Origin: Sphingomicrobium sediminis
Lineage (GTDB): Bacteria > Pseudomonadota > Alphaproteobacteria > Sphingomonadales > Sphingomonadaceae
Assembly (NCBI RefSeq): GCF_023805295.1
Contig: NZ_JAMSHT010000001.1
Location: 1,926,001-1,990,000 of the forward strand
Reading direction: 5' to 3'
Length of the DNA: 64,000 nucleotides
How positions within the stretch are numbered: the stretch's first letter is position 1; every line of letters starts with the position of its first letter. Positions 2,137 to 63,873 of the stretch are shown here, one piece after another. Under the pieces are notes generated by a model, which made no database searches, was not told the origin of the DNA, and was given only the letters and a program-made list of their open reading frames with translations. Both the position numbers and the translations under genes were made by a program.

Positions 2137-2148
2137 GGCGATACAGCA

Positions 2149-3962: not shown

Positions 3963-3978
3963 GTCGGGCGCGCAGGCC

Positions 3979-6435: not shown

Positions 6436-6528
6436 TCGTCTATGGAAAACCTGCCCCCCAATCCCCATATCGGACGGGCATGAGGAGCGCCCCCGCGCTT
6501 CCCCGCCGCATGACGGCTATCTCACTGA

Positions 6529-8967
<2,439 letters not shown>

Positions 8968-8970
8968 TCG

Positions 8971-12017: not shown

Positions 12018-12071
12018 CGTCCGTCCCCTGATCCTCAACCTGAAGGCTCGACTATTCAGGCAGGGCGGTGC

Positions 12072-12096
12072 CTGCACAAGGCTGCATACGTCTGCA
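12072..12096 (+). repeat. Three CTGCA half-sites in 10-bp phase
   Basis: CTGCA occurs at 12072, 12082 and 12092, exactly 10 bases apart, in the 119-base divergent region between the pullulanase and EEP genes. Helical phasing is a common property of regulator binding sites. No regulator can be named. Confidence 0.35.
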
Positions 12097-12136
12097 TGGA
12101 TTGGAGAAAGGCGGGTGCGCACCTACATAAGAAGGG

Positions 12137-14343: not shown

Positions 14344-14352
14344 CAGCGCATC

Positions 14353-15141: not shown

Positions 15142-15153
15142 TAGTCGCGCGCC

Positions 15154-15681
15154 CTAATCATTTTGCGGCACGGTAAAGCGCCCGGTGACGCGTCCGCCCG
15201 ACTGGTCGACCCCGCGCGGGCCGCCGTCGATCACGGCGCGGCCGCTGACCAGGTTGATGGTGAGGCGCGAGCCGTAAATCTCGTTGGCGCCTTGGCGCAG
15301 CTCGACATTGCCGACGAGGGTGATGACCCGCTCGTTGAGGTCGTAGATCGCATAGTCGCCGCTGGCGCGCTCATCGCCCGAGCGAACGGTCACGCCGCCC
15401 GATGCATCGAGGCGGTCAATGTCGACGCCGTCGCCGGTCGAATAGGCAATGCGCAGCCGCGCGGTCGACAGCGTCAGGGCGCCCTGACGCGCGACGACAT
15501 TGCCGATGAAGAGGGCGCGGTCGTTGCGGTCCTGCACTTCGATGCGGTCCGCGGCGATATCGACCGGCGCATTCACGTCATGCCCGCGCAGGATCGAGGT
15601 CGGATCCTGCGCGACCGCTGCACCTGTCAGGCTGGCAAGGCCGATGGCGGCGATGATAATTTTGGCACGCATATTGCTCAT
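15154..15681 (-). CDS. lptA: Periplasmic LPS transport protein LptA (OstA-like)
   Basis: The 175-residue product starts with a signal peptide (IIIAAIGLASLTGAAVAQ). An OstA/LptA beta-jellyroll region follows with the repeated pattern of short strands (IEVQDRNDRALFIGNVVARQ). LptA bridges the periplasm between LptC and LptD for LPS transport. Its start overlaps the lptC stop by 4 bases (ATGA), which implies translational coupling. Length is normal. Confidence 0.92.
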   Translation of the reverse strand: MSNMRAKIIIAAIGLASLTGAAVAQDPTSILRGHDVNAPVDIAADRIEVQDRNDRALFIGNVVARQGALTLSTARLRIAYSTGDGVDIDRLDASGGVTVRSGDERASGDYAIYDLNERVITLVGNVELRQGANEIYGSRLTINLVSGRAVIDGGPRGVDQSGGRVTGRFTVPQND

Positions 15682-16316
15682 CTGACCGCCCCTTGCGCGA
15701 TTTTCAAGCGGGCACGGCCAGAAAGCACGAGGGTTCGTGCGTCCAGATCGGCGGTCAGACCGCTCGCTTCGAACGATCCGAGGCGCATTTCCCCGGTCAC
15801 CCGGCCATCGCTCCGCAGCATGTTGGTATTGAGGTCGAGCGTCACGTCGCTCGTGTCGAGCCGATAGCCATCGGTGCCGGTGACGCGCAGCGTCGAGGGC
15901 ACGTTCACCATCTTCTCTTCGATATCGTAGCGGCCCTGCGGCGCGAGCACGGTCAGCTCGCCTTCGTCGGTCGACAGGCTGGCGGCCATGTCCTCGATCA
16001 TGACGACGGGCACCGCGCTCGATTCCTGTACCGCGCGTTCGGCGATGATCAGGAAGGCGCGGCCTTCTTCATCTTCGCCGCGATAGCGCGCGCGCTCGAC
16101 CCGCATCCGTTCTTCGGCCTGGTCGACCTCGGTCTTGTCGAGAATGAAGCTGTTGTCGCCGCGTTCGGCGAAGGGGAAGAAAGCGAGCGTCAGCAGTGCG
16201 AACAGGAAAATTACGGGCAGCAGCCACTTGCCGATCCGGACCACCTTGTCATGGCGGCTCCCGGGTTCGGCCCAGCGGCGCTTGGCTGCGCGTTCTTCTC
16301 GTGCCGCCTGGCTCAC
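15678..16316 (-). CDS. lptC: LPS export protein LptC
   Basis: The 212-residue product has a basic cytoplasmic head, one N-terminal membrane anchor (WLLPVIFLFALLTLAFFPFA) and a periplasmic beta-rich domain typical of LptC/YrbK. LptC passes LPS from LptB2FG to LptA at the inner membrane. Sequence identity in this family is low, so the call leans on the topology and on the lptC-lptA-lptB order. The gene starts 10 bases after rnd. Confidence 0.88.
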   Translation of the reverse strand: MSQAAREERAAKRRWAEPGSRHDKVVRIGKWLLPVIFLFALLTLAFFPFAERGDNSFILDKTEVDQAEERMRVERARYRGEDEEGRAFLIIAERAVQESSAVPVVMIEDMAASLSTDEGELTVLAPQGRYDIEEKMVNVPSTLRVTGTDGYRLDTSDVTLDLNTNMLRSDGRVTGEMRLGSFEASGLTADLDARTLVLSGRARLKIAQGAVR

Positions 16317-16325
16317 GCGGGCTCC

Positions 16326-16946
16326 CTAGCTATGGGCGAAAATGTCGACTTCGTCCCAACCGGCAAGGTCGAGCCGGGCACGGTCGGGAAGGAAATCGAA
16401 ACAGGCCTGCGCGAGTTCCGTGCGGCCTTCGCGGGCGAGGCGCTTGTCAAACTCTTCCTTGAGGCGATGCAGGAAGCGCACGTCGCTGGCGGCGTAGTCG
16501 CGCTGGGCATCGGACAGTTCCGGACCGCCCCAGTCGCTCGACTGCTGCTGCTTGGAAATGTCGGCGCTCAGCATCTCCTTCACCAGCTCCTTGAGGCCGT
16601 GGCGGTCAGTATAGGTCCGAACGAGGCGGCTGGCGGTGCGGGTGCAGTAGAGCGGCGCGGCCATGATGCCGAGATAATGCTGCATGATGGCGATGTCGAA
16701 GCGCGCGAAATGATAAAGCTTGAGGCGATTTGGGTCGCCGAGCAGCTTCTTGAGGTTGGGCGCGGCATAATCGCTGTCGGGGCCGAATCGGACGAGATGT
16801 TCGTCCTCGCCGCCGTCCGACAATTGCACGAGGCAGAGGCGATCGCGGTGCGGATGGAGGCCCATCGCCTCGGTATCGACCGCAATCGGGCCATCGGCGA
16901 ACGTCACGTCGTCCGGCAGGTCTTCTTCATGAAAATGTACGGCCAT
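16326..16946 (-). CDS. rnd: Ribonuclease D (DEDDy 3'-5' exonuclease), short form
   Basis: The 206-residue product contains the DEDDy exonuclease motifs: AVDTEAMGL (Exo I), YHFARFDIAIM (Exo II) and YAASDVRFLHRL (Exo III with the Tyr). It trims structured RNA 3' ends. It lacks the HRDC domains of E. coli RNase D; short forms of this kind are common in alphaproteobacteria. It heads the leftward block with lptC, lptA, lptB and rpoN. Confidence 0.92.
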   Translation of the reverse strand: MAVHFHEEDLPDDVTFADGPIAVDTEAMGLHPHRDRLCLVQLSDGGEDEHLVRFGPDSDYAAPNLKKLLGDPNRLKLYHFARFDIAIMQHYLGIMAAPLYCTRTASRLVRTYTDRHGLKELVKEMLSADISKQQQSSDWGGPELSDAQRDYAASDVRFLHRLKEEFDKRLAREGRTELAQACFDFLPDRARLDLAGWDEVDIFAHS

Positions 16947-17179
16947 CTGCTTCCTTTACCCTGCAGGATGAATGTCTTGCGAGGCTTCTAGCGCCCGCCG
17001 TCACCATAGGCCAGAGGCCGAAATCGGGAGAATTCGGCAAGAAATATTAGTAGTGTAACATTTTTTGGTATAAAAGGCGGTCGAGGTGCGAGCCCAATTC
17101 GCGCCAGGGGGCCCATGCGACTCGCCCGGTTCGTACGGCCCTTTATGAATTTTACCGGGGTGAAAAAGTTTGGACGGGC
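16947..17179 (+). other. Gap between rnd and the cold-shock gene: long AT-rich leader
   Basis: This divergent gap of about 230 bases has an AT-rich stretch (17040-17080, with TATAAAA at 17071-17077) in an otherwise GC-rich region. The cold-shock start follows GGACGGG. A long 5' leader would fit cold-shock mRNAs, but no cold box or specific fold could be confirmed by eye. Confidence 0.3.
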
Positions 17180-18019
17180 ATGGGTTACGATAGAGGGCGT
17201 AAAGGCGATCGCGGCGGACGCGGACGCGACAAGCGTGACGGCGGATTCTTCGGAGAAGACAATTACCAGGATCGCGGAAGCAGCTACGGCGGCGACCGTG
17301 GTGGTGGTGGCGGCTATCGCGGTGGCGGTGGCGGCGGCTACGGCGGTGACCGCGGCGGCGGAGGTGGCGGTGGCTACCAGGATCGTGGCGGCGGCTATGG
17401 CGGCGGCGGCGGTTACCAGGATCGCGGCGGCGGTGGCGGCGGCTATCGCGGCGGCGGTGGCGGCGGTGGCGGCTATCGTGGCGGCGGCGGTGGCGGCGGC
17501 GGGATGCCCCCCCAGGTCGTCGGCGAAGGCAAAGGCGTCGTCAAATTCTTCAATCCGCAAAAGGGTTTCGGCTTCATCGTCCGTGACGATGGCGGCGAAG
17601 ACGTCTTCGTCCATATCAGCGCGGTCGAGCAGGCCGGTCTCCAAGACCTGGCCGACGGCCAGCCGCTCGAATTCACGCTCGTGGATCGCGGCGGGCGCGT
17701 CTCGGCGACCAACCTCAAGATTGACGGCGAACCGATGGCCGTCGAGCGTGGCGGCGGTGCAGGCGCTGGTGGCAACACCCGCGAGCTGACCGGCGAAAGC
17801 TCGACCGGCACGGTCAAGTTCTTCAATGCCATGAAGGGCTTCGGCTTCATCCAGCGCGATGATGGCCAGCCCGATGCCTTCGTGCATATCAGCGCAGTCG
17901 AACGCGCCGGCCTAGCCTCGATCCACGAGGGCGACCGGTTCGAATTCGACCTCGAGGTCGACCGTCGCGGCAAATATGCTGCGGTGAACCTCAAGCCTGC
18001 GCCTGCGCAGGAAGGCTAA
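17180..18019 (+). CDS. Two-domain cold-shock protein with an RGG/glycine-rich N-terminal region
   Basis: The 279-residue product has two cold-shock domains, each with the RNP motifs KGFGFI and VFVHIS/AFVHIS. Domain 1 starts at about residue 115 (GVVKFFNPQKGFGFI) and domain 2 at about 210 (GTVKFFNAMKGFGFI). Before them lie about 110 residues made almost entirely of Gly, Arg, Tyr and Asp in repeats such as GGYRGGGGG and YQDRGGG. Such a head is likely disordered and RNA-binding. Double cold-shock proteins act as RNA chaperones or transcription antiterminators in alphaproteobacteria. The ATG at 17180 follows GGACGGG. The next small gene begins 5 bases after the stop. Confidence 0.92.
   Translation: MGYDRGRKGDRGGRGRDKRDGGFFGEDNYQDRGSSYGGDRGGGGGYRGGGGGGYGGDRGGGGGGGYQDRGGGYGGGGGYQDRGGGGGGYRGGGGGGGGYRGGGGGGGGMPPQVVGEGKGVVKFFNPQKGFGFIVRDDGGEDVFVHISAVEQAGLQDLADGQPLEFTLVDRGGRVSATNLKIDGEPMAVERGGGAGAGGNTRELTGESSTGTVKFFNAMKGFGFIQRDDGQPDAFVHISAVERAGLASIHEGDRFEFDLEVDRRGKYAAVNLKPAPAQEG
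17190..17510 (+). repeat. GC-rich GGC/GGT repeat encoding the RGG region
   Basis: Runs of ggcggcggtggc-type units, interrupted by codons for Tyr-Arg and Tyr-Gln-Asp-Arg, encode the disordered head of the cold-shock protein. Such degenerate repeats can change length between strains by slippage or recombination. Confidence 0.7.
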
Positions 18020-18024
18020 TTCGG

Positions 18025-18354
18025 ATGTGGGCGCTGGTTGCAGCCGGTCTGCTCGGCATGGCCGCGCAACCGGCGTCCAATTCGGGCCTCGAGCCCGGCA
18101 CGGCCGAGTTCGACCTGGCATGTTTTCACGCTGTTCCCTTTTTCATCGATGAAAATCCGCGGTTCCGGAACGACCTTGCCGTGGTCGTCGGATTCTATAC
18201 GGGGCGTATCGATGCGACCTGGGATATCCTGTCGCTCGATGCCGACTGGGAAGTCATGGCCAAACGGTTCGAGGACGGCGAACTGGATTACGATACGGTC
18301 GTGCCCGTGTGCGCGGCCTATATGAGCGTCAAAACCGAATCGATGGTCGAGTAG
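18025..18354 (+). CDS. Small exported protein of unknown function
   Basis: The 109-residue product has a short hydrophobic start (MWALVAAGLLGMAAQPA) that looks like a signal peptide. The mature acidic domain of about 90 residues contains two Cys residues that could form a disulfide. I do not recognise the family. GGAAGG, its likely ribosome binding site, lies inside the end of the cold-shock gene 5 bases upstream, so the two are probably cotranscribed. Its stop lies 1 base from the stop of the converging DNA ligase. Confidence 0.65.
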   Translation: MWALVAAGLLGMAAQPASNSGLEPGTAEFDLACFHAVPFFIDENPRFRNDLAVVVGFYTGRIDATWDILSLDADWEVMAKRFEDGELDYDTVVPVCAAYMSVKTESMVE

Positions 18355-48863: not shown

Positions 48864-49339
48864 TGGCGCCCCCGTGCGACGATCAGGTCGACGGCGACGC
48901 CGCCTTCGCCATTGTCGGTGAGCCGCACGCTCTCGATGCGCAGACCCGATGCGCGGAGCTGGTCGATCCAGGTCAGCGCGGCCTGCGCCTGTGCCTGGGC
49001 GATGCCGATATCGGTGCGGTCGGGGCCTGCTTCGACATTGCGCGTGAGCGCGAACCCAGCCTGCGCCGCGCTTACCGAGACATAATCGGACACGGTGCCG
49101 GCAAAGGCGGCGACCGGCGCGTCATCCTCGCCCTGTTCGAGGGCCAGCGCGAGTGCACGAACATTGCCATAGCGCTCGCTCGCGACGACGAACTCGTCGC
49201 GTGCGCTGTCGTGCCAGGCGTTGACCGGGCGAATGACGGCGAGCCAGAGCAGGACGGGTGCGGCGATCGCCAACATGGCGAGGACCATGACCTGCTCGCG
49301 GCGCGACAATGCGAGATACCAGTTGCGCAAGCCTTCCAT
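48860..49339 (-). CDS. gspM: Type II secretion system protein M
   Basis: The 159-residue product has a short cytoplasmic start with RRE, one membrane helix (QVMVLAMLAIAAPVLLWLAVI) and a small periplasmic ferredoxin-like domain. This is the GspM layout; GspM stabilises GspL and the inner-membrane platform. Sequence conservation in the family is low, so gene order supports the call. Overlaps gspL (TGATG) and gspN (ATGA). Confidence 0.88.
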   Translation of the reverse strand: MEGLRNWYLALSRREQVMVLAMLAIAAPVLLWLAVIRPVNAWHDSARDEFVVASERYGNVRALALALEQGEDDAPVAAFAGTVSDYVSVSAAQAGFALTRNVEAGPDRTDIGIAQAQAQAALTWIDQLRASGLRIESVRLTDNGEGGVAVDLIVARGRQ

Positions 49340-50436
49340 CAGCCAGCCCCCTGCATCGTCAGGTCGACCGTCGCGCGCCCGTCGGCTGCGTCGATCGGGT
49401 TGGCGATCACATTCCAGCCGCGGCGCTGCAGCGCCACGAGCAGGCGATTGATCGAGTCCATATCGGGCGAACTGAGGCGTGCGGTCAGGATACCGGCCGG
49501 TTCGACGCCGATCAGCGTCGCACCGATCATCGGCTCCTGTTCGATTTCGGCCAGCAGGCTGGCGATCAGCTGCGCCGCTCCGGGCCCAAGCGCGCGGTCG
49601 GCGAGCGCGACTTCCAGCCGTGCCTGCGCCGCATCCGCAGTGACCGGCTGGCCGAGCGCTGCGGTTGCGATGGCGGCGCTGTCGCGATCGAGCCGGTCCG
49701 CCTCGGCCTCCCAGCGTAGGGCCTTGCCGACGGGGATGAGGACGGCGACGAGGATGATGGCGGCGGTGAGCCAGGCCAGTTGCTTGACGATCCGGCGGTC
49801 GGGTTTCCAGCGGCGACGCATGGCGAAGCGCCCGCTGCGCAAGTCGACCGGCGGGTTTGCAGCGCCGGCAACCAGCAGGTTCGCCAATTGGTGATGGTCG
49901 ATCGTGTCGACGAAGTCCTCGCCCACCAGGGCTTCAACCAAGGCAGGATCCTCGCCGATGGCCATGCCGTCGCGGGCAAGAATGGTGCGACCGGCAATGC
50001 GCGCTTCGTGCCAGTCACCGTCGAGCGGCATCAGGGATGCAAAGGGAACGATCATGTCGAGCGCAGCGCCATGCGCCTCGCCCCACGCGATCCAGCCATT
50101 CATGTCGCTAGCGTCGGTCACCGCTTTCCAGGCCGGGTCGGCCTCGCTCGGCGGTGCGCTGATGACGACATGCGGATCGGGGCCGAGGGCAGCAGCTTCG
50201 GCTTTCAGACGTGCGGCCGTGCGCAACTGGGCGCTGGCGACGTCGCAGCCTGGAATGAGGTCGAGGCGGACCGCTTCCGGACCGGCGAGCCCGATCGTGC
50301 GATCGACATTTTCGAGGCGTGCGATCCAGTCGGCATCGACGCCGTGGGCGATGACGCCTTCCTCGCTGACGTCCCACCATGCGGCGGTGCCGTCGCTACC
50401 CGGATCGTCGGGAAGGAAGAGGATGAGGCTGCGCAT
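49339..50436 (-). CDS. gspL: Type II secretion system protein L
   Basis: The 365-residue product has an actin-like cytoplasmic domain (about residues 1-210), a membrane helix near 220 (LAWLTAAIILVAVLIPVG) and a periplasmic domain. GspL links the GspE ATPase to the platform. It lies 2 bases after gspK and overlaps gspM by one base. Confidence 0.9.
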   Translation of the reverse strand: MRSLILFLPDDPGSDGTAAWWDVSEEGVIAHGVDADWIARLENVDRTIGLAGPEAVRLDLIPGCDVASAQLRTAARLKAEAAALGPDPHVVISAPPSEADPAWKAVTDASDMNGWIAWGEAHGAALDMIVPFASLMPLDGDWHEARIAGRTILARDGMAIGEDPALVEALVGEDFVDTIDHHQLANLLVAGAANPPVDLRSGRFAMRRRWKPDRRIVKQLAWLTAAIILVAVLIPVGKALRWEAEADRLDRDSAAIATAALGQPVTADAAQARLEVALADRALGPGAAQLIASLLAEIEQEPMIGATLIGVEPAGILTARLSSPDMDSINRLLVALQRRGWNVIANPIDAADGRATVDLTMQGAG

Positions 50437-50438
50437 GA

Positions 50439-51395
50439 CTAGAGCGCCTCCGCCCAGCGCCTCGCATGGAGCTGTGCGACCCCGTTTTCGACGGTGAAGA
50501 GCGACACTTGCTGCAACTCGCTATCCCCTTCCCCCACGCGGGTGATCAATCGGAACGTCCCGGTCTCGACCGTCACCTGCTGGGACCGCTGGCGCGGCAG
50601 GTCAACCCCGGAGAGCGGGCCCGTATTCCAGAAGTCGACCACCGAGCCGAAGCCGGCGCGCGGTCGCGAGGCGATCTGGGCGCGCGCTGCGCTGAGGCTG
50701 ATCTGCTCGGGCGCGAGCATCGCCAGCAAGGCAGCCTGTTCGGGCCGCAGCGTTTCGACGTTCACGCTATTCGCCTCGTGCGAGGGAAGGGCGCAGAGCC
50801 ACGGGCGGACGATTTCCCAGGTCGCGACGTCCATGCCCTCGATACCGGCCAGCTCATCGGGGCTGGCGACGGCGCGATTGGGCACCAGGCTGCCATCCGC
50901 CATGCGCTCGCTGCCGAGCGGGCGGGGATTGTCATTGCTGTCGAGCGCGTCGCCCGCTGCATCGGCGAGTTGCTGGGCGCGGCTCTCGGGAAGGCCGATC
51001 AGCTGAAGGAAATCGCGAAACTGGAAGACGCGGCGCGCGGTCGCCCTCAAGGTCCCGTCGCGGCGCTGGCGCACCAGGCTGTTCACGTTGAAGCAATTGC
51101 TGCCGTCCTCGATGCGCGCGGTCACGGTCTGGCCGTCCGGTAGTTCGATACTGCGTTCGACCCCGAGGACTTGCGCCTGCTGCGCGCCGGTTAGCGAGGC
51201 GGCATCGACCAGCCGCGCCTGTGCAAGCTGCTCGGCCATGACGAGCCATTGGCGGCCCTGCATGGCGACGCCGGCATTGCCCGCCAGCCGTGTCGAGAGG
51301 CTCAGCCGGTCGAGCGCGGTTGCGGCGATGGCGGCCATCACGGCGACGATCAGCAAGACGGAAAGTAGCGCGGTGCCGCGTTCGCTGGTCTTCAT
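50439..51395 (-). CDS. gspK: Type II secretion system minor pseudopilin K
   Basis: The 318-residue product starts with a class III signal RGTALLSVLLIVAVMAAIAA. It lacks the +5 Glu, as expected for GspK, and a large globular domain follows (FNVNSLVRQ). GspK forms the tip of the pseudopilus with GspI and GspJ. It overlaps gspJ by 4 bases. Confidence 0.93.
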   Translation of the reverse strand: MKTSERGTALLSVLLIVAVMAAIAATALDRLSLSTRLAGNAGVAMQGRQWLVMAEQLAQARLVDAASLTGAQQAQVLGVERSIELPDGQTVTARIEDGSNCFNVNSLVRQRRDGTLRATARRVFQFRDFLQLIGLPESRAQQLADAAGDALDSNDNPRPLGSERMADGSLVPNRAVASPDELAGIEGMDVATWEIVRPWLCALPSHEANSVNVETLRPEQAALLAMLAPEQISLSAARAQIASRPRAGFGSVVDFWNTGPLSGVDLPRQRSQQVTVETGTFRLITRVGEGDSELQQVSLFTVENGVAQLHARRWAEAL

Positions 51396-52012
51396 TCGGC
51401 CGCCTCCACTTCGCTATCCGTGTCGCGGTCGAAGCCGACGAGCGGGGGCAGGGCGACGATGAACTCGGTCTGCGGCTGGCGCGTGCTTGCGAGGGTCAGG
51501 CGGACAGCGCGTGGCAGCGCTTCGCCGCTTCCGTCGGGCCAGGTTGCCGACCAGCCGCCGGACAGGTTGCGATAGGCGAGCGAGAAGCCCGATACGTCTT
51601 CCATCAACACGGCCTCGGGCAGGCGGTCGGCAGGCCCGTCGACCGCATCGAAGGTCAGGCGAACGAGGCGCCCATTCTCGACCGTCCAGCCGATGCGCCT
51701 GAGGTCGCTCGTGGGGGCGGCATCAAGTGCGACGACACCGGCGCGGACGAAATCCATGCCGTTCGGATCGCCGGTAAATGCAGGGCGATCGCCGCCATTG
51801 GCATCGCGGCGCGGACGCAGCGCGACTTGCGACAGATCGGCGTCGAGCAGGAGGGCGATGCGCTCCACTTCCGCCTGTTCGGCGAGCGAACGATCGACCA
51901 CGGCCTGCGTATCGGCGCTGGCGCGCAGCAGCCCAACCCCGGCGCTGGCGAGCAGCGCAAAGATGGAGAGCCCGACGAGCATCTCGATGAGGGTGAAGCC
52001 GTTTTTCCTCAC
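51392..52012 (-). CDS. gspJ: Type II secretion system minor pseudopilin J
   Basis: The 206-residue product begins with the prepilin motif RKNGFTLIEMLVGLSIFALL, including the +5 Glu, and a C-terminal globular domain typical of GspJ. Overlaps gspI and gspK by 4 bases each. Confidence 0.93.
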   Translation of the reverse strand: MRKNGFTLIEMLVGLSIFALLASAGVGLLRASADTQAVVDRSLAEQAEVERIALLLDADLSQVALRPRRDANGGDRPAFTGDPNGMDFVRAGVVALDAAPTSDLRRIGWTVENGRLVRLTFDAVDGPADRLPEAVLMEDVSGFSLAYRNLSGGWSATWPDGSGEALPRAVRLTLASTRQPQTEFIVALPPLVGFDRDTDSEVEAAE

Positions 52013-52374
52013 GCGTCGATCCTCTTGACCGTGACGAGACGCTGCGAGGGGCCGCCGGCCAGCGGACGCACGGTGATGGTGACGGTGACGAAACGCGGGT
52101 CGGCCGTATTGGCGACATTGGTGAGGACGGCGAATTGCTGGCCGCCATTGACGAGCGTGCGGCTCGTATCTTCCGGGCGTCCCGGCTCGGACGCGACGAG
52201 CGCCGCTTCGTTGCGCGCGACCAATCGCGCCATGCCATTCTCGGTGAGATTGGCGGCGGTGCCGACCGCATAGGCATCGATGCGCAGCAAGGCGAGCGCG
52301 GCAATCGAGAAGACGCTCAAGGCCACGAGCATCTCGATGAGCGTGAAGCCCTTCTGGTCGGCGGGCACGCGCAT
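52009..52374 (-). CDS. gspI: Type II secretion system minor pseudopilin I
   Basis: The 121-residue product begins with the prepilin motif QKGFTLIEMLVALSVFSIAA and has the short globular domain of GspI (NLTENGMARLVARNEAALV). The ATG at 52374 overlaps the gspH stop by one base (TGATG). The open frame continues upstream inside gspH, but that part has no prepilin sense. Confidence 0.93.
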   Translation of the reverse strand: MRVPADQKGFTLIEMLVALSVFSIAALALLRIDAYAVGTAANLTENGMARLVARNEAALVASEPGRPEDTSRTLVNGGQQFAVLTNVANTADPRFVTVTITVRPLAGGPSQRLVTVKRIDA

Positions 52375-52838
52375 CAATTGGCCTCCACCCGCCCGTTGGC
52401 GGCGACGGAGACGGTGGCGATGCGGCCCTCGGGACCGGTCAGCTGAACGATGCTCGGGGCGCTCGGCATGCCAAGATTGTCGAAGCGGATGCCGACGCGC
52501 CCGGCTTCCCCTGTGCTGGCAGTGACCCCGCCGCGAAAGGCCTGGCGACCATCGAAGCGGCGCGCCTCGAGCACTTCCCATTCGCGATTGCGATATTGTT
52601 CGAACCCGAAACCGGAGGTCGTCACCCAAATGCCGGTCGGCCGGCCGCGCAGGACGGCCTCGTCGCGCACCGCGGCAATGCGGCCGGCGAGCATGACGGC
52701 TTCGTCGCGCGCCACATCGCTCGGGCGCAGCGTCAACACGACTGCGCTCGCGGCAAGCCCGATGAGGACGAGCACCACCATCAGCTCCACCAGGGTGAAG
52801 CCGTTGCGGGTCGGTTTAGGGGGCGTAGATGTCCGCAT
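52374..52838 (-). CDS. gspH: Type II secretion system minor pseudopilin H
   Basis: The 154-residue product begins MRTSTPPKPTRN followed by the prepilin motif GFTLVELMVVLVLIGLAAS and then the GspH/FimT-like domain. The start at 52838 lies inside the end of gspG (22-base overlap) and was chosen because it gives a normal short leader. Confidence 0.9.
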   Translation of the reverse strand: MRTSTPPKPTRNGFTLVELMVVLVLIGLAASAVVLTLRPSDVARDEAVMLAGRIAAVRDEAVLRGRPTGIWVTTSGFGFEQYRNREWEVLEARRFDGRQAFRGGVTASTGEAGRVGIRFDNLGMPSAPSIVQLTGPEGRIATVSVAANGRVEAN

Positions 52839-53250
52839 TCTCGTTTTCGCCGCCCGGCTGGCCATCGGCGCCGAGGCTGTAAATGTCGAAGGGACGACCA
52901 TCGCGGCCCGGCACCTGGATCTGGAACGGGCGACCCCACGGATCTTCCGGAATGTCGCGGACATAGCCGCCCGGGCGGTAGCGGTCGGGCTGGGCCAGGT
53001 CGGCGGGCGGGGTTTTCAGCGCCTCGATGCTGGTCGGATAGGTGAAATTGTCGATGCGATACTGCTCCATCGCATTTTCAAGCTGGCTGATATTGGCCTG
53101 CGCGGCAGTGCGCTGGGCTTGGTCCTGCGCGGGCAGGACGTTGAGCATGACGACGGTGCCGAGCAGGCCGATGATGACGATGACGACCATCAGTTCGACG
53201 AGGGTGAAGCCGTTTTTCTTGCGGCGTTTGGGCTGGGTCTTGGACGTCAT
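52816..53250 (-). CDS. gspG: Type II secretion system major pseudopilin G
   Basis: The 144-residue product has the prepilin motif KKNGFTLVELMVVIVIIGLL, the GspG body (MEQYRIDNFTYPTSIEAL) and a C-terminal PWGRPFQ...DIYSLGADGQPGGE segment that binds calcium in known GspG. It builds the pseudopilus piston. Confidence 0.96.
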   Translation of the reverse strand: MTSKTQPKRRKKNGFTLVELMVVIVIIGLLGTVVMLNVLPAQDQAQRTAAQANISQLENAMEQYRIDNFTYPTSIEALKTPPADLAQPDRYRPGGYVRDIPEDPWGRPFQIQVPGRDGRPFDIYSLGADGQPGGENENADIYAP

Positions 53251-53254
53251 GAAA

Positions 53255-54475
53255 CTAGCTTCCGATCAGGGTCTGGAGTTGCAGGATGGGCATGAGGATC
53301 GCGAGCACGATGGCGGCGACGACGGCGCCCATGATGATGATGATCAGCGGCTCGAGCAAGGCGAGCGCAGAACTGGTGAAGGTATCGAATTCGCGTTCGA
53401 GATAGTCGGCGGCCTGGCCGAGCATGGGGCCCAGTTGGCCGGCGCTCTCGCCGCTGGCGGTGAGGTGGACCAGCAAAGGCGGGAACATGCCGGTACGGCG
53501 AAGCGCGCCCGACAGGCTGCCGCCACCGCGAATTTCTTCCTCCATCTGCCGCGTTGCTTGGGCGAGGCGACGATTGGAGATGGTGCGGGCAGTCAGGCGC
53601 AGACCCTCGACCAGCGGCAGGCGCGCCTCGACCATCGTGGCGAGCGTCCGCGCCATGCGGGCGGCATTGAGGTCGCGCAGCAGGCGACCGAAAAAGGGCA
53701 GTTTCAACAGGGCGGTGTCGAAGCGCAGGCGAAAGGCCTCGTTGCGCATCGCGGTTGCAGTGCCGATCACGGACAGCGCAATTGCGCCGAGCAGCACCCA
53801 CCAATAGCCTGCGAGGAAGTCGCTGATAGCGATGACGATGCGGGTGAGGAGCGGCAGTTGCTGGCCGACATCCTCGAACTGTTCGACTACCTTGGGCACG
53901 ACCGCGATCATGAGCGCGGCGACGACGCCGATGGCGACGAGGGTGAGAACGGCAGGATAAGCGAGCGCGCTGACCAGCTTGGAACGCATTTCGGCCTGGC
54001 GCTCCTGCAGCGCGGCGAGACGGTTCAATTGTTCGGGCAGCGTGCCCGAACTTTCGCCCGCCGCGATCATGGCGCGGTAGAGCGGGTCGAAACTCTTGGG
54101 TTCGGATGAGAGTGCATCGGCGAGGCGCCGCCCTTCGACGACGCGATCGGCGACGCGGGTGACGATGCCGCGCATGGCGGGCTTGTCGGTCTGCCGCGCG
54201 ATGGTGCGCAGTGCCTCCTCGATCGGCGAGACCTTGATGAGGGTCGCCAGCTGGCGGGTGAACAGCACGCGTTGCTTGGCGTTGAACTTGGCCTCGCGCG
54301 ACAGGCTGAGGCCACCGCCCGACACGGCTTTTTCCTCGGCCACCGCGACGCGCACGGGGACAAGGCGGCGCTGCTCCAATGCAGCGCGCGCTTCGCCGTC
54401 ATTGGCGGCGCGGATCATGCCGCGCTTCTCGCGCCCGCGCGCATCGACGGCGAGATAGGCGTAGAGCCCGGCCAT
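53255..54475 (-). CDS. gspF: Type II secretion system inner-membrane protein F
   Basis: The 406-residue polytopic protein has two GspF/PilC repeats (FTRQLATLIKVS, GESSGTLPEQLNRLA, MARTLATMVEARLPLVEGL) and three membrane helices. It is the platform core. Its start overlaps the gspE stop by one base; gspG begins 4 bases after its stop. Confidence 0.96.
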   Translation of the reverse strand: MAGLYAYLAVDARGREKRGMIRAANDGEARAALEQRRLVPVRVAVAEEKAVSGGGLSLSREAKFNAKQRVLFTRQLATLIKVSPIEEALRTIARQTDKPAMRGIVTRVADRVVEGRRLADALSSEPKSFDPLYRAMIAAGESSGTLPEQLNRLAALQERQAEMRSKLVSALAYPAVLTLVAIGVVAALMIAVVPKVVEQFEDVGQQLPLLTRIVIAISDFLAGYWWVLLGAIALSVIGTATAMRNEAFRLRFDTALLKLPFFGRLLRDLNAARMARTLATMVEARLPLVEGLRLTARTISNRRLAQATRQMEEEIRGGGSLSGALRRTGMFPPLLVHLTASGESAGQLGPMLGQAADYLEREFDTFTSSALALLEPLIIIIMGAVVAAIVLAILMPILQLQTLIGS

Positions 54476-56082
54476 CAGCCTTGTTCTGCCTCGCCTTCAT
54501 CCTCGTGACGCGAGATGCGGATGGCTTCCTCGGGCGTGGTTTCGCCCGAGCGCACCAGCTTGCGTGCTGCCGAGCCGAGATTGGGCGAATTGAGGAAGGC
54601 ATGACGCGCAATCACCGCTTCGTCGCCGCCATCGGCGATGAGGCGGCGGATGGTGCTGTCGACCTTGACCGCCTCGAACACGCCGATGCGGCCCTTGAAG
54701 CCGGTATTGGAGCATTCCGCGCAGCCCTGCGCGCGATAGACGGTCTCGCCCTCGTCGAAGCCAAGCAACGCAGCGACGCTGCGGTCCGCCGGGACGGCTT
54801 CGCGGCAATTCATGCATAGGCGGCGCACGAGGCGTTGGGCGACCACGGCGCGGAGCGTCGAGGCGATGAGGAAGGGCTCGATCCGCATGTCGCGCAAGCG
54901 CGTGATCGCGCCGACCGCGTCGTTGGTATGGACGGTCGAGAGGACGAGGTGGCCGGTCAGCGAGGCCTGCACCGCAATATCGGCGGTTTCCTTGTCGCGG
55001 ATTTCGCCGACCATGACGATGTCGGGATCCTGGCGGAGAATGGCGCGAAGGCCCGCGGCAAAGCTCATGCCGACCTTCGAATCCACCTGCGTCTGGCCGA
55101 TGCCATCGATCGAATATTCGACCGGATCCTCGACGGTGAGGATGTTGCGTTGGCCATCGTTCAAATGCTGGAGCGCGGCGTAAAGCGTCGTCGTCTTGCC
55201 CGAGCCGGTGGGGCCGGTAACGAGGATGATGCCGTTGGGCTCGCCCAGCGCTTCGCGGAGGATCTCGTCGGCAGTGCCGTGGATACCGAGCAGGTCGATC
55301 GACAGGCCGGCATTCTCCTTGTCGAGAATACGCATGACGACACGTTCGCCGGCGCGGCTGGGCAGGGTCGAGACGCGTACATCGAGCTGGCGACCGCCAA
55401 GCTTCAGCGCGATACGGCCATCCTGCGGCACGCGGCGCTCGGCAATGTCGAGGCGCGCCATGACCTTGATGCGGCTCACCACCACGGGGGCGGCGTGCGC
55501 GGGCATGCGCAAATGCTCCTTGAGCACGCCGTCGCGGCGCAGGCGGACCACGAGGCCGCTTTCATAGGGCTCGATATGGATGTCGGAGACACCGAGACGG
55601 ACGGCTTCGGCGATGATGCCGTTGATAAGGCGGATGGCGGGTGCGTCATCGCTCGAATCGAGCAGGTCTTCGGCGCTCGGGATGCCGCTGGCCAGTTCGT
55701 CCAGCTCGTCACCGCCGCCGCTCATTTCGGCGAGCCCTTCGGCAGCGCCACCGGCATAGCGGCCGTGGAGCAGGCGGTTGAATTCGCCTTCGTCGACAAA
55801 GTCGATGGCGAAGGGTTGGGCAAGATAGCGGCGAACCTCGATGAGGATCGACGGATCGGCGCCTTCCTTCACGGCCAGAGTGAGGCCGTTCTCACTGTCG
55901 GGGCGGATCACCACGCTATGTTCGCGCGCGAAGGCATAAGGAATGTCGATCACTGCCGACATCGGCACTTCGGCGCGCGGTTCGTCGAGCGCCATCGTGC
56001 CGGGCGTGGGCTTCTGCTCCTCGATGACGAAATCGCCCGGCTCGTCGATCGGGTCGCGGTTGCGGCGTCGGATGATCATCAT
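54475..56082 (-). CDS. gspE: Type II secretion ATPase E
   Basis: The 535-residue product has Walker A GPTGSGKTTTLYAAL near residue 290, the Asp and His boxes of secretion ATPases (LRAILRQDPDIVMVGEIRD, GHLVLSTVHTNDAVG) and the zinc-binding tetra-Cys CMNC...CAEC near 445-475. It powers pseudopilus assembly. It overlaps gspD by 4 bases and gspF by one. Confidence 0.97.
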   Translation of the reverse strand: MMIIRRRNRDPIDEPGDFVIEEQKPTPGTMALDEPRAEVPMSAVIDIPYAFAREHSVVIRPDSENGLTLAVKEGADPSILIEVRRYLAQPFAIDFVDEGEFNRLLHGRYAGGAAEGLAEMSGGGDELDELASGIPSAEDLLDSSDDAPAIRLINGIIAEAVRLGVSDIHIEPYESGLVVRLRRDGVLKEHLRMPAHAAPVVVSRIKVMARLDIAERRVPQDGRIALKLGGRQLDVRVSTLPSRAGERVVMRILDKENAGLSIDLLGIHGTADEILREALGEPNGIILVTGPTGSGKTTTLYAALQHLNDGQRNILTVEDPVEYSIDGIGQTQVDSKVGMSFAAGLRAILRQDPDIVMVGEIRDKETADIAVQASLTGHLVLSTVHTNDAVGAITRLRDMRIEPFLIASTLRAVVAQRLVRRLCMNCREAVPADRSVAALLGFDEGETVYRAQGCAECSNTGFKGRIGVFEAVKVDSTIRRLIADGGDEAVIARHAFLNSPNLGSAARKLVRSGETTPEEAIRISRHEDEGEAEQG

Positions 56083-58283
56083 TGGATGGTCTCCTCGTCT
56101 GCAGGATCGGTCAGGATATTTTCGCCCATCGGCTCGGCCGGCGGGACGTCAACGTCCTGCACGGTCGAGGGCCGCACGACGACATCGCCCGGAGCGAGCG
56201 GCGCGGCGACCGGCGGAACGGCGCCGAGATAATCGCGGACCAGCGTATCGAGCGCGGGCTCGACATCGGGATCGTTATAATATTGAGCGTTGCGCATGTA
56301 GCCGTAGCGGCGCGCGGTCATGGCTCGGGCATCGTCGCTGTCGCGGATGATGGTCGGGCGGATGAAGACCATGAGATTGGTCTTCGACTTCGACCGCGAG
56401 CGCGATTTGAACAATTCGCCGATGAGCGGGATGTCGCCCAGCAGCGGGATCTTCTCGATCGTGTTGCGCTCGGCTTCGTCAAGCAGGCCGCCGATCGCGA
56501 GGATCTCGCCATCGTCGACCGTGACGACCGTCTTGAACTCGCGCTTGTTGATGACGAGGTCCGAGGATCCGCTGGCAACCGGGCCGGCGACGCTCGAAAC
56601 TTCCTGGCGGATGAAGAGCTTGACCGAGCCCGACGAATTGACCTGCGGTTTGACGTCGAGCTGGATGCCGACATTCTGGCGCTCGACGGTGCGGAAGGCA
56701 TTGTCGAAATTGGTCGAGAGCGCTTCCCCGGTGGTGATCGGCACTTCCTGGCCGACGAGCAGGCTCGACTCCTGATTGTCGAGCACGACGGTCGAGGGCG
56801 TCGAGAGAATGTTGCTCTCGGTATCGGATTCGACCGCATTGATGATCGCGCCGAACAAGGCATTGCCCGCAAGATTGACGACCCCGCCGGCAAGACCGCC
56901 CGTGGAGCTCAGCGCGGACTGGACCGCGGCCTCGGTCACGCCGTCGCCGAGCGGGCTGTCGATCGTGGTGGTGACGACGCCTTCGTCGGAGACGCTCGTC
57001 TCGCGGCCAAGTTCGTAATTGGCGATGGCGCCGCCGATGGCGAGGATGTTGGGCTGCGCGTTGGAATAGTTGGCGGCGAGGAACGGGCTGTCCTCGCCTG
57101 CAAGCAGGAACTGGACGCCCAGCTGGCGCGCGGCATTGTCGCCGATTTCGACGATGATCGCCTCGACCAGTACCTGTTCGCGGCGCGTGTCGAGCTGGCG
57201 GATGACCTCGCCGACCTGGCGCTGCACTTCGGGATTGGCGGCGATGATGATCGCGTTGGTGCCGGTGTAGCGGGTGACGACGGCCGGCCCGTATTGGACA
57301 ATGCCGTTATTGCTGGTGCTGGTCGTTACGGTCGATGCGGTTTGCGGTGCGGGCTGGCTGCGCGGACCGGCGCCCGTACTCTCGCCATCCTGCGAGGTGA
57401 GGAAGGCGGGCGCTTCGGAAGTGGTCGTGATCGGCTGGCCGAGCAATTGCTGGAGCACCGGCAGCATCGCCTCGGCATCGGCATGTTCGAGCCAGTAGAC
57501 GCGGATCTGCGAGCCGCCCGCGGCGCGCATGTCGAGCTCGCGGGCAAGGTCCGCGTAGCGCTCGACGGCTTCGGAGGGCCCACGCAGCGCCAGTGCATTG
57601 GCGCTGTCGATGGCGCTCACACCGACCGGTGCGGCGAGGTCGCCGCCCTGCTCGTTAAGGGCGGCCAGAGCCTCGGCAATCTCGCGCGCGCCGGCATTCT
57701 GGAGATAGACGACATCGCTCGAGCTGGTGTCGGTATCTAGACGCTGCAGCAGCGCGCGGATGCGGCGCACATTGTCGGCATAATCTGCAATGACGAGGCT
57801 GTTGGCGTTGCGATTGGCGGTGATCGACCCTTCGCTCGAGACGAGCGGGCGCAGCGTTTCGATCGCTGCTGCCGCCTCGACCGTGCGCAGGCGGAAAATC
57901 TCCGTCACGAACTGGTTCTGTGCGCTTCCGGCAAGGCCGGTGCGGCTCGGCTGCGTCGCGGCGCCTTGGGCGGGCTGGATGCGATAGCCGCCGGGAATGG
58001 GAATGGCGACGAGGCCGTTGGCGCGCAACGTGGCCAGGAACACCTCGAAATATTCCGAGCGCGACAGCGAGCGGTTGGTCACCACGCTGATATTCTGGTT
58101 CACCCGACTGTCGACCACGAAGGTGAGGCCCGTCACGCGCGCGGCATCGTCGACGAAGGCGCGCACGTCGGCATCGCGCATGTTGAGCATATATTGCGCG
58201 TAGGCCGGCACCGGGGCCGCCGCGATCATCAAAGCGGCTGTGGCGAGGGCGATTTTCTTGGTCAGCATAAGGTGCGTCTTCAT
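56079..58283 (-). CDS. gspD: Type II secretion system secretin D
   Basis: The 734-residue product has a signal peptide (ALMIAAAPVPAYAQ), the N0 domain (RDADVRAFVDDAARVTGLTFVVD), N1-N3 repeats (NSLVIADYADNVRRIRALLQRLD) and the C-terminal secretin domain (LLVGQEVPITTGE, VDDGEILAIGGLLDE). It forms the outer-membrane channel. A Ser/Thr-rich insertion near residues 295-325 lies in the N3 region. It begins 8 bases after gspC. Confidence 0.97.
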   Translation of the reverse strand: MKTHLMLTKKIALATAALMIAAAPVPAYAQYMLNMRDADVRAFVDDAARVTGLTFVVDSRVNQNISVVTNRSLSRSEYFEVFLATLRANGLVAIPIPGGYRIQPAQGAATQPSRTGLAGSAQNQFVTEIFRLRTVEAAAAIETLRPLVSSEGSITANRNANSLVIADYADNVRRIRALLQRLDTDTSSSDVVYLQNAGAREIAEALAALNEQGGDLAAPVGVSAIDSANALALRGPSEAVERYADLARELDMRAAGGSQIRVYWLEHADAEAMLPVLQQLLGQPITTTSEAPAFLTSQDGESTGAGPRSQPAPQTASTVTTSTSNNGIVQYGPAVVTRYTGTNAIIIAANPEVQRQVGEVIRQLDTRREQVLVEAIIVEIGDNAARQLGVQFLLAGEDSPFLAANYSNAQPNILAIGGAIANYELGRETSVSDEGVVTTTIDSPLGDGVTEAAVQSALSSTGGLAGGVVNLAGNALFGAIINAVESDTESNILSTPSTVVLDNQESSLLVGQEVPITTGEALSTNFDNAFRTVERQNVGIQLDVKPQVNSSGSVKLFIRQEVSSVAGPVASGSSDLVINKREFKTVVTVDDGEILAIGGLLDEAERNTIEKIPLLGDIPLIGELFKSRSRSKSKTNLMVFIRPTIIRDSDDARAMTARRYGYMRNAQYYNDPDVEPALDTLVRDYLGAVPPVAAPLAPGDVVVRPSTVQDVDVPPAEPMGENILTDPADEETIQ

Positions 58284-58291: not shown

Positions 58292-59092
58292 CTAGAGGTT
58301 GACCGAAACGGTCACGACGCCGTCGCCGCGCTCGACATCGAGCGCGAGGCGGGCGGCAGGTTTGAGGCTGGCTTTGAGTTCATCGATGTCCGACTGGCTG
58401 TTGATCGGCGCGCCATTGACGCCGACGATCACGTCGCCCTGCTGGAAACGAAAGAAGCTGAGCATTTGCGGCTCGACATCGAGCGGCAGGCGCGCGCCGG
58501 TAATGCGATTGCCGGTGGTGCGCGGCAGCAGGCGAAGGTTGGGAATGGCCGCAGCGACGGCGGCTTCGGTGCCGGCGGGCGGGCCGCCGACAACGCTCAC
58601 CGTCTCGGCCGGGATGCTGTTGTCGATATAGAGCCGCTCTCGCACCCCGCCGCGGTCGAGCACGACATGGTCGAAGGCGACGGCGGCGAGCGTGACGCCG
58701 GGGGCGACTTCCTCGCCGACCGCGTAGCTGACCTGTTCGCCGTCCGATCCGGCGATGATGGCGCTGCCAGTACCGGCGCCGCGATTCTCGCGAATGCCGA
58801 ACAGTTCGAGTTCGAGATCGGTCACGCCTTCGCCGGCCTGCGCGCTGGCGGCGCTTTGCGGGAAGGGGTCGACGCGCAAGAGCAAGGCGGATTGTTCGGC
58901 CTCGGACAGCAGGCGCGGCGTCGGCGCGCGCCAGTCGCCGACCGGGCCAACGGGGGTGACGATGACCCAGAACAAACGGGCGAGCAGGGCTGCGAGAATG
59001 GCGATGAGTACGAGCCGGACAAGCCGCGGCACGCCCGCAAGAAGGGCGCCTTGGCGACGCTTGGCGCGCCAATTCAGAATCGGGTTCGGCAT
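58292..59092 (-). CDS. gspC: Type II secretion system protein C
   Basis: The 266-residue product has one membrane helix (LVRLVLIAILAALLARLFWVI), a homology region with the segment FGIRENRGAGTGSAIIAG, and a C-terminal PDZ-like domain (FRFQQGDVIVGVNGAPINSQ). GspC links the platform to the secretin and contributes to substrate choice. The ATG at 59092 follows GGGGAG; an in-frame start 18 codons upstream is less likely. It is the first gene of the operon, and a Pho-box-like array lies 38 bases upstream. Confidence 0.93.
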   Translation of the reverse strand: MPNPILNWRAKRRQGALLAGVPRLVRLVLIAILAALLARLFWVIVTPVGPVGDWRAPTPRLLSEAEQSALLLRVDPFPQSAASAQAGEGVTDLELELFGIRENRGAGTGSAIIAGSDGEQVSYAVGEEVAPGVTLAAVAFDHVVLDRGGVRERLYIDNSIPAETVSVVGGPPAGTEAAVAAAIPNLRLLPRTTGNRITGARLPLDVEPQMLSFFRFQQGDVIVGVNGAPINSQSDIDELKASLKPAARLALDVERGDGVVTVSVNL

Positions 59093-59129: not shown

Positions 59130-59173
59130 AGGAAAGACTCTTTCAAGACTTGTTTTTTACAGATTTTAGACAG
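59130..59173 (-). promoter_or_regulatory. Pho-box-like 11-bp repeat array before gspC
   Basis: Read on the minus strand, four consecutive 11-base units start with CTGTC, CTGTA, AAGTC and GAGTC, so GT stands at the same place in each. The first two (CTGTCTAAAAT, CTGTAAAAAAC) share CTGT and an A/T-rich linker, the layout of PhoB sites (CTGTCAT-N4-CTGTCAT). The array reads toward gspC. PhoB control is inference. Confidence 0.5.
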
Positions 59174-59211
59174 AAAGAAAGGCCGGCTCCCTTTTCAGGA
59201 AACCGGCCTCT
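59165..59211 (-). terminator. Terminator after the TonB receptor
   Basis: The arms AGGCCGG/CCGGCCT (59180-59186 and 59203-59209) have a 16-base loop. On the minus strand they are followed by TTTCTTTCTGTCT, a reasonable U-rich tail. It lies between the receptor stop and gspC; the tail merges into the first 11-bp repeat before gspC. A T-run also follows on the plus strand. Confidence 0.65.
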
Positions 59212-62123: not shown

Positions 62124-63662
62124 TCAGTTGCCGGCAGCCGGGATATCCAGGCAGCTGGCCTGGCCCGGAAGGTCGCAGGTCCAACCCTGCCACCACGTGT
62201 CCGCCGCACCGTTCACGGCACCGACATAGGCAGCGGCCTGGACGGCGGCGCTATTCTCGAGCGCGCTGAAGTCGGCAGCCGCAGTGGCCGCAGCTTCCGT
62301 GCCGCCATTGACGAAGGTGTCGGTCAGCGAGTTGGTGTAGTCGGCGTTGCTGTTGGCATCGAACAGCGCAGCGATGGTCGCTGCCGAGACGCCGCCATTG
62401 CCGTCGTCATAAGCGGGCGTGCCGCAGTCGAGCAGGACCGAGCGAAGCGGGGTGGCTTCCTCGTCGGTCATGTTGGTGACCGTCTCGCTATTGTCGATGT
62501 CGAGGCAGAAGCCGCCGCCCGTGACGACGACCGAGTTGTAGATCGACAGGTCGGTGCCGGCGCGGGCGTTGATGACCTTGCCGGTTTCGCTGGTGACGGC
62601 GGTCATGTTGAGGATCTCGACGTCGGTCGACGGGATGTTGTCGAACGGCTTGTCCGAGCTGTCGATCTCGATCAGCTTGTCGCCGCGGCCCGACGTATTG
62701 TCGATGATCACGAACTGGGTGAGACCCTGATAGCCCGAATCATAGTCGATGGCTTCGTCTTCGTTGCCGGTCAGGACCAGGTTGTAGTTGTTCACGCGGC
62801 CACCGAACCACTCGATGCCATCGTCCGAATTGTTGTGGACCTGGACGTGGTTGAAGATGGTGCCGGCGCCAACACCTGCCAGCGTGATGCCGTTCAGCTC
62901 GTTGTTGAGGTCGACCTGGAAGCCGGCATAGCGAACCTGCAGATATTCGATGCGGCCCGACGTGTCGTTGGCGGCGTTACCACCGTAGAGCGAACCCGAC
63001 GTGCCTTCGACCGGCGATTCACAGCTTTCCGGCGTGGCGGGCGTGCCCGAGAGGCAGTCGCCGATCGGGGCGCGGCCCAGCAGGACGAGGCCGCCCCAGT
63101 CACCGGTCGAGCTTTCGACGGCATCGCCGACGACGTTGGCGCGGCTGGTCATGACGACCGGATTGTCGGCACGGCCATCGACGATGAGCTGCGAGCCGCG
63201 GTTCACGGCGAGGAAGTCGGCGCCCGAGGCACCGAAGATGGTCACGCCTTCTTCGATCGTCAGCGTGGCCTGCATACCGGTCGGGTTGTTGGCGTCGCCG
63301 CCGGCATCGGTGCCGACCTGGACCTTGCCCGAGAGCGAGTAGATCGTGCCGGCATTGTTCGGCAGGAACAGGTCGCTCGTGATGGTGCCCGAAATCTGGC
63401 AGACGCGGCGCTCGTCGGCGCTGTTGCCAAGGACGTCGACAGTGCCGGCATTGGTGGTGCCCGTCGGGCAGTCGGCGGCCGGGCCACCCGTCGGGGTGGG
63501 GGTCGGCGTGGGCGTCGGCGTGGGCGTCGGCGTCGGGGTGGGCGTCGGGACGACGATCACACCTTCGCCGGGCGAGGCGACATCGTCGGCACCGCAAGCA
63601 GCCAGCGCACCGGCAGCCACGGTCAGCATCAGGACGTTACGAACATTCTTGAAGTTGGTCAT
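62124..63662 (-). CDS. Large beta-helix-like lipoprotein with a (Pro-Thr)10 stalk, candidate type II secretion substrate
   Basis: The 512-residue product has a lipobox (VAAGALAAC, Cys near residue 22), a short acidic segment and ten Pro-Thr pairs. A repetitive beta-rich domain follows (GISGTITSDLF-like opening, LTIEEGVTIFG, FNHVQVHNNSDDGIEWFGG, VNNYNLVLTGNEDEAIDYDSG). That domain resembles right-handed beta-helix or pectate-lyase-like folds. The C-terminus has paired Cys residues. I see no catalytic motif. The ATG at 63662 follows GGAGA; the upstream extension of the frame is not signal-like. Its TonB receptor and the type II operon follow on the same strand. A similar trio, with the secreted lipoprotein ElpS, is known to me from Caulobacter. 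Confidence 0.8.
   Translation of the reverse strand: MTNFKNVRNVLMLTVAAGALAACGADDVASPGEGVIVVPTPTPTPTPTPTPTPTPTPTGGPAADCPTGTTNAGTVDVLGNSADERRVCQISGTITSDLFLPNNAGTIYSLSGKVQVGTDAGGDANNPTGMQATLTIEEGVTIFGASGADFLAVNRGSQLIVDGRADNPVVMTSRANVVGDAVESSTGDWGGLVLLGRAPIGDCLSGTPATPESCESPVEGTSGSLYGGNAANDTSGRIEYLQVRYAGFQVDLNNELNGITLAGVGAGTIFNHVQVHNNSDDGIEWFGGRVNNYNLVLTGNEDEAIDYDSGYQGLTQFVIIDNTSGRGDKLIEIDSSDKPFDNIPSTDVEILNMTAVTSETGKVINARAGTDLSIYNSVVVTGGGFCLDIDNSETVTNMTDEEATPLRSVLLDCGTPAYDDGNGGVSAATIAALFDANSNADYTNSLTDTFVNGGTEAAATAAADFSALENSAAVQAAAYVGAVNGAADTWWQGWTCDLPGQASCLDIPAAGN
63489..63548 (-). repeat. Tandem repeat encoding ten Pro-Thr pairs
   Basis: Sixty bases of ccg/ccc-acg/acc codons encode an unbroken (Pro-Thr)10 linker. 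The near-perfect hexamer and 12-mer repetition makes the tract a candidate for length variation. Each unit is 6 bases, so gain or loss keeps the frame. Confidence 0.9.
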
Positions 63663-63763
63663 CTTTGTCTCCGCTCTCGGGCGAGTGATTGGATTTCGCT
63701 GAAACGGGCGCAAAGGAACCCCCTGCGGCGCCCGGTCTCGAGAAGCGGAGTAGGATGTGGGTT

Positions 63764-63873
63764 TGACGCTATCGTGCAGTGCAGGTGACGCGAACATGCC
63801 GACGGCATGACGGCTTCGTGCCGTCAGCTTGACGCGAGAATCTCGATTTCATGACGGAGCTGTGACGCCCCCG
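63764..63873 (-). promoter_or_regulatory. Tandem TGACG/CGTCA array in 11-bp register (Pho-box-like)
   Basis: On the plus strand TGACG begins at 63764, 63786, 63808, 63830, 63852 and 63863, that is at steps of 22, 22, 22, 22 and 11. At three of the four intermediate 11-bp positions (63775, 63797, 63819) the sequence is TGC; at 63841 it is TCTC. On the minus strand this is a direct CGTCA repeat reading toward the lipoprotein gene about 100 bases downstream. PhoB binds direct 11-bp repeats of this form. The pair at 63852-63867 reads GCGTCAC-N4-CCGTCAT. Confidence 0.6.

Follow-up and report, generated by a model that had tools for sequence, protein, structure and literature searches.

A row of GTCA cores held in an 11-bp register stands upstream of an ElpS-type lipoprotein gene in the window (the whole stretch of 64,000 nucleotides analysed here). 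We propose that it is a PhoB operator, on which dimers would be set in phase upstream of elpS and would fill cooperatively at low phosphate. We place the probability of this reading, which is drawn from sequence comparisons, at about 0.87. The array would then be a PhoB-type operator of unusual length, restricted to this lineage and serving a locus whose phosphate response is known from Caulobacter. PhoB-type control had already been suggested in the initial annotation of this DNA and is supported by a register kept in relatives, by likeness to pst promoters, by a match to PhoB, by the gene neighbourhood and by the phosphate response in Caulobacter.

Direct reading finds TGACG at positions 63764, 63786, 63808, 63830, 63852 and 63863, all exactly as annotated. 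The registers between these motifs hold TGCAG (63775), TGCCG (63797 and 63819) and TCTCG (63841); the claim that TG stands at three of the four intermediate 11-bp positions is therefore correct. As the lipoprotein is encoded on the minus strand, with the ATG of its gene at 63662-63660, GTCA in the array points toward that gene. On that strand the first bases of GTCA are 63866, 63855, 63833, 63811, 63789 and 63767, giving steps of 11, 22, 22, 22 and 22 toward elpS, and the poor cores at 63844, 63822, 63800 and 63778 belong to registers reading CGAGA, CGGCA, CGGCA and CTGCA. The direct-repeat unit is the 11 nt of a PHO box, with a GTCA core in 6/10 registers; all six cores read CGTCA, and T precedes GTCA in none of them (0/6). 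The estimate of about ten half-sites holds for the registers, only six of which carry good cores while four are poor. Coordinates of all features are collected in the table.

Table. Features of the elpS region, in window positions.
Feature	Position	Strand	Basis
Array: ten 11-bp registers, six CGTCA cores	63764..63867	-	direct reading, shuffles, pst-matrix scan
Best PhoB-like 18-mer of array, CCGTCATGAAATCGAGAT	63840..63857	-	pst matrix, rank 4 of 127,966
Candidate -10, TACTCC	63747..63752	-	11 nt past last GTCA; poor consensus match
ElpS-type lipoprotein gene, 512 aa	62124..63662	-	lipobox LAAC by eye; relatives; predicted fold
TonB-dependent receptor gene, 921 aa	59266..62031	-	family scan
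PhoB-like site upstream of gspC	59132..59173	-	pst-matrix scan, 11-bp register
gspC, first type II secretion gene	58292..59092	-	family scan
gspD	56079-58283	-	best NCBIfam model
gspE	54475-56082	-	best NCBIfam model, just below curated cut-off
gspF	53255-54475	-	best NCBIfam model
gspH	52374-52964	-	best NCBIfam model, just below curated cut-off
gspJ	51392-52012	-	best NCBIfam model
gspK	50439-51395	-	best NCBIfam model
gspL	49339-50436	-	best NCBIfam model

Shuffles and genome counts rule out a chance origin of the register. When the 228 nt preceding the elpS ATG were dinucleotide-shuffled 20,000 times, a single 11-bp register never held more than three GTCA (three in 11 shuffles), compared with the six observed. 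GTCA-N18-GTCA-N18-GTCA occurs at three places in the 2.33-Mb genome, all inside the array, and a genome search with the reversed control pattern returned none. TGACG-N17-TGACG occurs at nine places, four of them being successive steps of the array. Tandem duplication is ruled out as well, since Tandem Repeats Finder (minimum score 30) reports no tandem array at 63764..63867; the cores recur, and the spacers between them differ.

Across the order, four GTCA at exact 22-bp steps are found in 20/396 genomes, against 2/396 for the reversed control (7 places in G053 and 3 in G142). Among the 30 loci fetched, an elpS relative lies within 1.5 kb on either side in the window's own genome and in G002 only. 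Fourteen of the 20 genomes, all of the family, carry another 22-bp repeat type, GTCAGG...CCCCC (loci L166-L170, L172, L173, L175, L176, L180-L182, L185 and L188). These repeats are probably plasmid iterons, and in the one locus examined (L182) a Rep3 replication initiator gene adjoins them. On their account we considered whether the window repeats might themselves be iterons or the end of a mobile element and not a promoter operator, an explanation to which we give next to no credence: spacers in the window array are not repeated, elpS, a receptor gene and type II secretion genes follow it, and other genomes retain the register before elpS. Plasmid iterons at 63764..63867 were rejected, as repeated spacers were not found there and the neighbours on the downstream side belong to the secretion locus, the gene on the upstream side being cut off by the end of the window. 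Another genus has a phased TGAC array seen by eye (four at 22 bp, near 1500-1570 of L174), which precedes a small-protein gene with a signal-like start and is perhaps the site of another 11-bp regulator.

The gene order in the window is lipoprotein, TonB-dependent receptor, then gspC, D, E, F, H, J, K and L; the type II genes tested after gspC span 49339..58283 on the minus strand. We assign the lipoprotein to ElpS through two related Caulobacter MAGs (L068 and L081), in which a homologue with 42% identity is followed by TonB receptor and gsp genes in identical order. A receptor relative lies beside elpS in 65 of the 67 relatives' loci (not deduplicated) with at least 7 kb downstream, a gspD relative follows in 44, and both are present in 42. 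In Caulobacter crescentus the reported order is cc0170 (elpS), cc0171 and gspC onward (gspC..N), and the order of elpS, receptor and gsp genes is said to be common to Sphingomonas alaskensis (PMC2996285). The same source reports that cells starved of phosphate produce ElpS, that its release depends on the type II system, and that poor medium raises elpS 3.5-fold by qRT-PCR and also induces a fusion of the elpS promoter to lacZ (PMC2996285). The type II system is described as part of a Caulobacter PhoB regulon of 47 genes (PMC11208175). Since cc0171 is reported as constitutive and the type II genes as expressed in both media (PMC2996285), genes downstream of elpS may not follow elpS.

A contig search for relatives of elpS matched 562 stretches, of which the best 80 were kept. 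Of the 107 elpS loci (L009-L115), we left out the second halves of tandem frames (L028-L035) and four loci with too little upstream sequence (L023, L027, L048 and L109); the 95 kept were collapsed by shared 12-mers to 70, window included. Within the genus, elpS is present in 10/37 genomes, own included (E 1e-10). Loss of the 11-bp register in relatives had been named as evidence that would count against a PhoB-type operator; the register proved to be kept. In the 69 deduplicated upstreams of relatives, 57 of the 95 GTCA pairs less than 70 nt apart are spaced at multiples of 11 bp, where an even spread gives about 9 and shuffles a mean of 1.5 (largest 7 in 300). The spacings are 22 bp (24 pairs, from 18 loci), 44 (10), 11 and 33 (7 each), 66 (5) and 55 (4). 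An exact chain of two or more GTCA is present in 25/70 elpS upstreams, with three or more in 9/70 and none in 45/70. Six of the nine same-genus relatives with elpS have an in-register chain; the three without one, and the 45 upstreams lacking an exact chain, count against the PhoB reading. The nearest in form to the window array are L015 (steps 11, 22, 22 and 22) and L010 (11, 22 and 22).

Within the PhoB reading, the array could also be largely an unused leftover, with one or two promoter-near sites doing the work. This version fits the number of in-register cores, which varies from two to six among chains, the three same-genus relatives without an in-register GTCA pair (L011, L016 and L018) and the poor scores of most window cores. 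Yet L010 with four cores and L015 with five retain the same 11-22-22 pattern despite different spacers, which suggests that the cores are kept, and we consider the leftover version unlikely. It is compatible with our best explanation, so that the odds we assign to the two do not sum to one. The relatives also bear on the TGACGGC-N5-GCCGTCA palindrome, which is indeed present at 63808-63826, as annotated, and which had been taken as a hint of a different regulator. A regulator binding this dyad is very improbable, because the palindrome is made of one array core and one extra arm and was not seen in those elpS upstreams of relatives that were inspected by eye; it is probably incidental.

We next compared the elpS upstreams with pst promoters. 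In the window's own genome, pstS is preceded by GTCA-N7-GTCA-N7-GTCA; TGTCA-N6-TGTCA occurs there at three places, one of which is pst, and the neighbouring reading frames were listed for the other two. Upstreams of pstS were taken from the 30 best matches with loci, out of 48 genomes with a match. In these 30 same-genus genomes, own included, GTCA pairs before pstS peak at 22 bp (26 pairs) and 11 bp (14), the next spacing being 69 (6). The common pst form is GTCAY-NN-AACTGTAAY-...-GTCAC, whose middle half-site recurs in relatives' elpS units, and T precedes GTCA in 21/25 pst units. We measured likeness as the correlation of the non-anchor columns of 22-bp units, with 5000 column permutations. 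Relatives' elpS units (24) correlate with the pst units (25) at r = 0.70, and 0/5000 permutations reach this value. Relatives' units from upstream of gspC give r = 0.73 (5 units, 0/5000), control units elsewhere in the loci r = 0.29 (9 units, 112/5000) and reverse-strand control units r = 0.16 (17 units, 651/5000). An earlier control with r = 0.69 was replaced because its 14 units included 5 from gspC upstreams.

Scoring with a PhoB matrix, one of the checks put forward in the initial annotation, gave a divided result. The matrix, built from 25 units of 24 of the 29 pst upstreams that are not the window's own, places one 18-mer of the array among the best positions of the window (see the table), and the remaining nine registers rank from 35 to 18,240 of 127,966 window positions. 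Ranks 2 and 3 belong to other parts of the window, so that rank 4 carries little weight by itself. As most sites of the array are weak against this matrix, the annotated prediction of strong control is not supported. The best forward match reaches a shuffle p <= 0.01 in 32/70 elpS upstreams, compared with 9/70 reverse strands; for the window's best site, shuffling of the window's own elpS upstream gives p = 0.015. These per-sequence shuffles replaced a threshold on window scores that was useless for AT-richer relatives (61/70 forward, 38/70 reverse). An excess at multiples of 11 is seen for the reverse motif TGAC as well (13/32 pairs, where an even spread would give about 3), perhaps through sites facing divergent genes; given this excess and the nine reverse strands, the reverse-strand controls are not clean.

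A candidate regulator is encoded in the same genome, in a cluster that reads, in a row, PhoR, PstS, PstC, PstA, PstB, PhoU and PhoB. PhoR (288 of 334 bits) and PstS (163 of 207) score below their curated cut-offs, yet lie inside the pst-PhoU-PhoB cluster, and the genome thus holds the cognate PhoR-PhoB pair expected of a PHO box. The solved structure nearest to the DNA-binding domain of this PhoB is that of E. coli PhoB (1gxp, 93 bits), presumably the complex with the pho box; the next other protein is MtrA (66 bits). The stretch RTVDVHIRRLR, which we take to be the recognition helix, is identical in the alignment of the two PhoB proteins. Another response regulator of the OmpR family that uses 11-bp direct repeats could bind the array in place of PhoB. 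The genome offers candidates, with 28 stretches showing some match to the PhoB model and, besides PhoB, five near full-length proteins with both domains, and the window sites are without the T of the pst consensus. We nevertheless regard such a regulator as improbable, since relatives' elpS units match pst units, one protein alone passes the PhoB cut-off, and the Caulobacter counterparts are reported to follow phosphate (PMC2996285) and, for the type II system, PhoB (PMC11208175).

The geometry of the promoter is consistent with activation by PhoB. TA stands 11 nt past the last in-register GTCA in 13 of the 25 elpS upstreams with a chain, window included, whereas the largest TA count at any position in 5000 shuffles is 7; the figure rises to 18/25 when a shift by one or two additional 11-bp registers is accepted. 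The corresponding arrangement at E. coli phoA is GTCA-N11-TATAGT. PhoB effector domains are arranged head-to-tail when bound to a pair of 11-nt units (PMC4415409). When phosphate is scarce, head-to-tail PhoB dimers would occupy the array, one per 22 bp and on one face of the DNA, with room for five dimers in phase. The final half-site would lie 11 nt ahead of the -10, as at phoA, and with this spacing the nearest dimer could hold RNA polymerase at the promoter. That dimer would contact the polymerase, and the farther weak sites would add cooperative occupancy. Being mostly weak, the sites would fill cooperatively and turn elpS on at a given level of phosphorylated PhoB; activation might extend by read-through into the TonB receptor gene.

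More tentatively, and holding it less likely than not, we hypothesize that in this lineage one or two strong PHO boxes before elpS may have given way to a long, phased series of weak sites. Such a cooperative operator would respond later or more sharply than that of pst to a rising level of phosphorylated PhoB, and the costly genes for surface and secretion functions would then come on only in deep starvation. The trend of array length with weakness of the best site, by which such a replacement was judged, is not significant (Spearman -0.25, p = 0.22; 25 upstreams, kinship ignored). Array length rises with GC (Spearman 0.47, p = 0.02) in the same 25 upstreams, again with kinship ignored.

A second PhoB-like site, upstream of gspC, came to light solely through the pst-matrix scan. 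Its half-sites begin at 59171 (GTCT), 59160 (GTAA), 59149 (GTCT) and 59138 (GTCT), and its first 18-mer (at 59173) is the best pst-matrix match in the window, a score helped by AT content because the site overlaps the T-rich tail of a hairpin. In 46 gspC upstreams, not deduplicated, pairs of GTCA or GTCT number 16 at 11 and 9 at 22; there are also 19 pairs at 41, 9 at 19 and 8 at 8, and with these further peaks the spacing count is no evidence on its own. The hairpin, GGCCGG...CCGGCC followed by T-rich DNA, lies at about 59180-59210 on the minus strand, between the TonB receptor gene and gspC, and by eye resembles a terminator. If the terminator is real, gspC requires a promoter of its own.

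The lipoprotein has no family in Pfam or NCBIfam at E 0.001 and no relative among PDB sequences at E 0.01; a lipobox, LAAC, was recognised by eye in its translation. Its predicted structure, from 22 sequences, is mostly beta with a mean pLDDT of 81.6; the 22-row alignment left out L050 and L084 (stop codon within the coordinates) and L047, L063, L110 and L112. A fold search of the model against the PDB gave no match at E <= 0.001. Among the weak matches listed, polysaccharide enzymes and phage tailspikes, presumably beta-helix proteins, make up the larger part. A model of the SslE lipoprotein matches weakly in 4/22 members (best E 1.4e-4), the window member not among them. No phosphatase signature was seen in the family, fold and PDB sequence searches, and ElpS itself is reported not to be a phosphatase (PMC2996285). 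Shortly past the lipobox, a low-complexity Pro-Thr run encoded by a 6/12/18-bp tandem repeat (63489-63548) is likely to be a surface spacer. Eight genomes from five further families of the order (L020-L035) have their elpS relative in a longer open frame, of 911-1006 codons, within which two matching halves follow each other in tandem.

The array offers a DNA-level reason for the elpS phosphate response reported in Caulobacter and, through the conserved 22-bp spacing rule, would extend that response to Sphingomonadales. Natural elpS promoters in which the number of phased PhoB-like cores ranges from two to six would also form a series for relating site number and strength to response threshold. 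A search of titles and abstract starts among the matches listed in open-licence literature found no PhoB array before elpS, which is weak evidence of absence.

Compared with known systems, the window resembles the Caulobacter elpS locus in the order of lipoprotein, TonB-dependent receptor and type II genes; the main text of that paper has 'PhoB' once and 'pho box' 0 times (PMC2996285). Like pst promoters of the same genus, relatives' elpS units have GTCA-N18-GTCA with a CTG(T/C)AA half-site between; the pst promoters differ in having typically two or three cores, a T before GTCA and an A-rich spacer, whereas the window array has six weaker cores. The PHO box of E. coli phoA and other Pho promoters is alike in its 11-nt direct repeats, GTCA core and gene-ward orientation (PMC4415409), and phoA also in GTCA-N11-TA. 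As defined, however, it has two units against the ten registers of the window array, which reads CGTCA and not CTGTCA, with good cores mostly every 22 bp; the PHO-box consensus is reported to differ between species (PMC4415409). Longer Pho-type operators are known from Streptomyces, where complex PhoP operators likewise contain several 11-nt units of unequal conservation (PMC4415409, PMC7866108), four in the case of pitH2 (PMC7866108), but serve another regulator with the core GTTCACC (PMC4415409).
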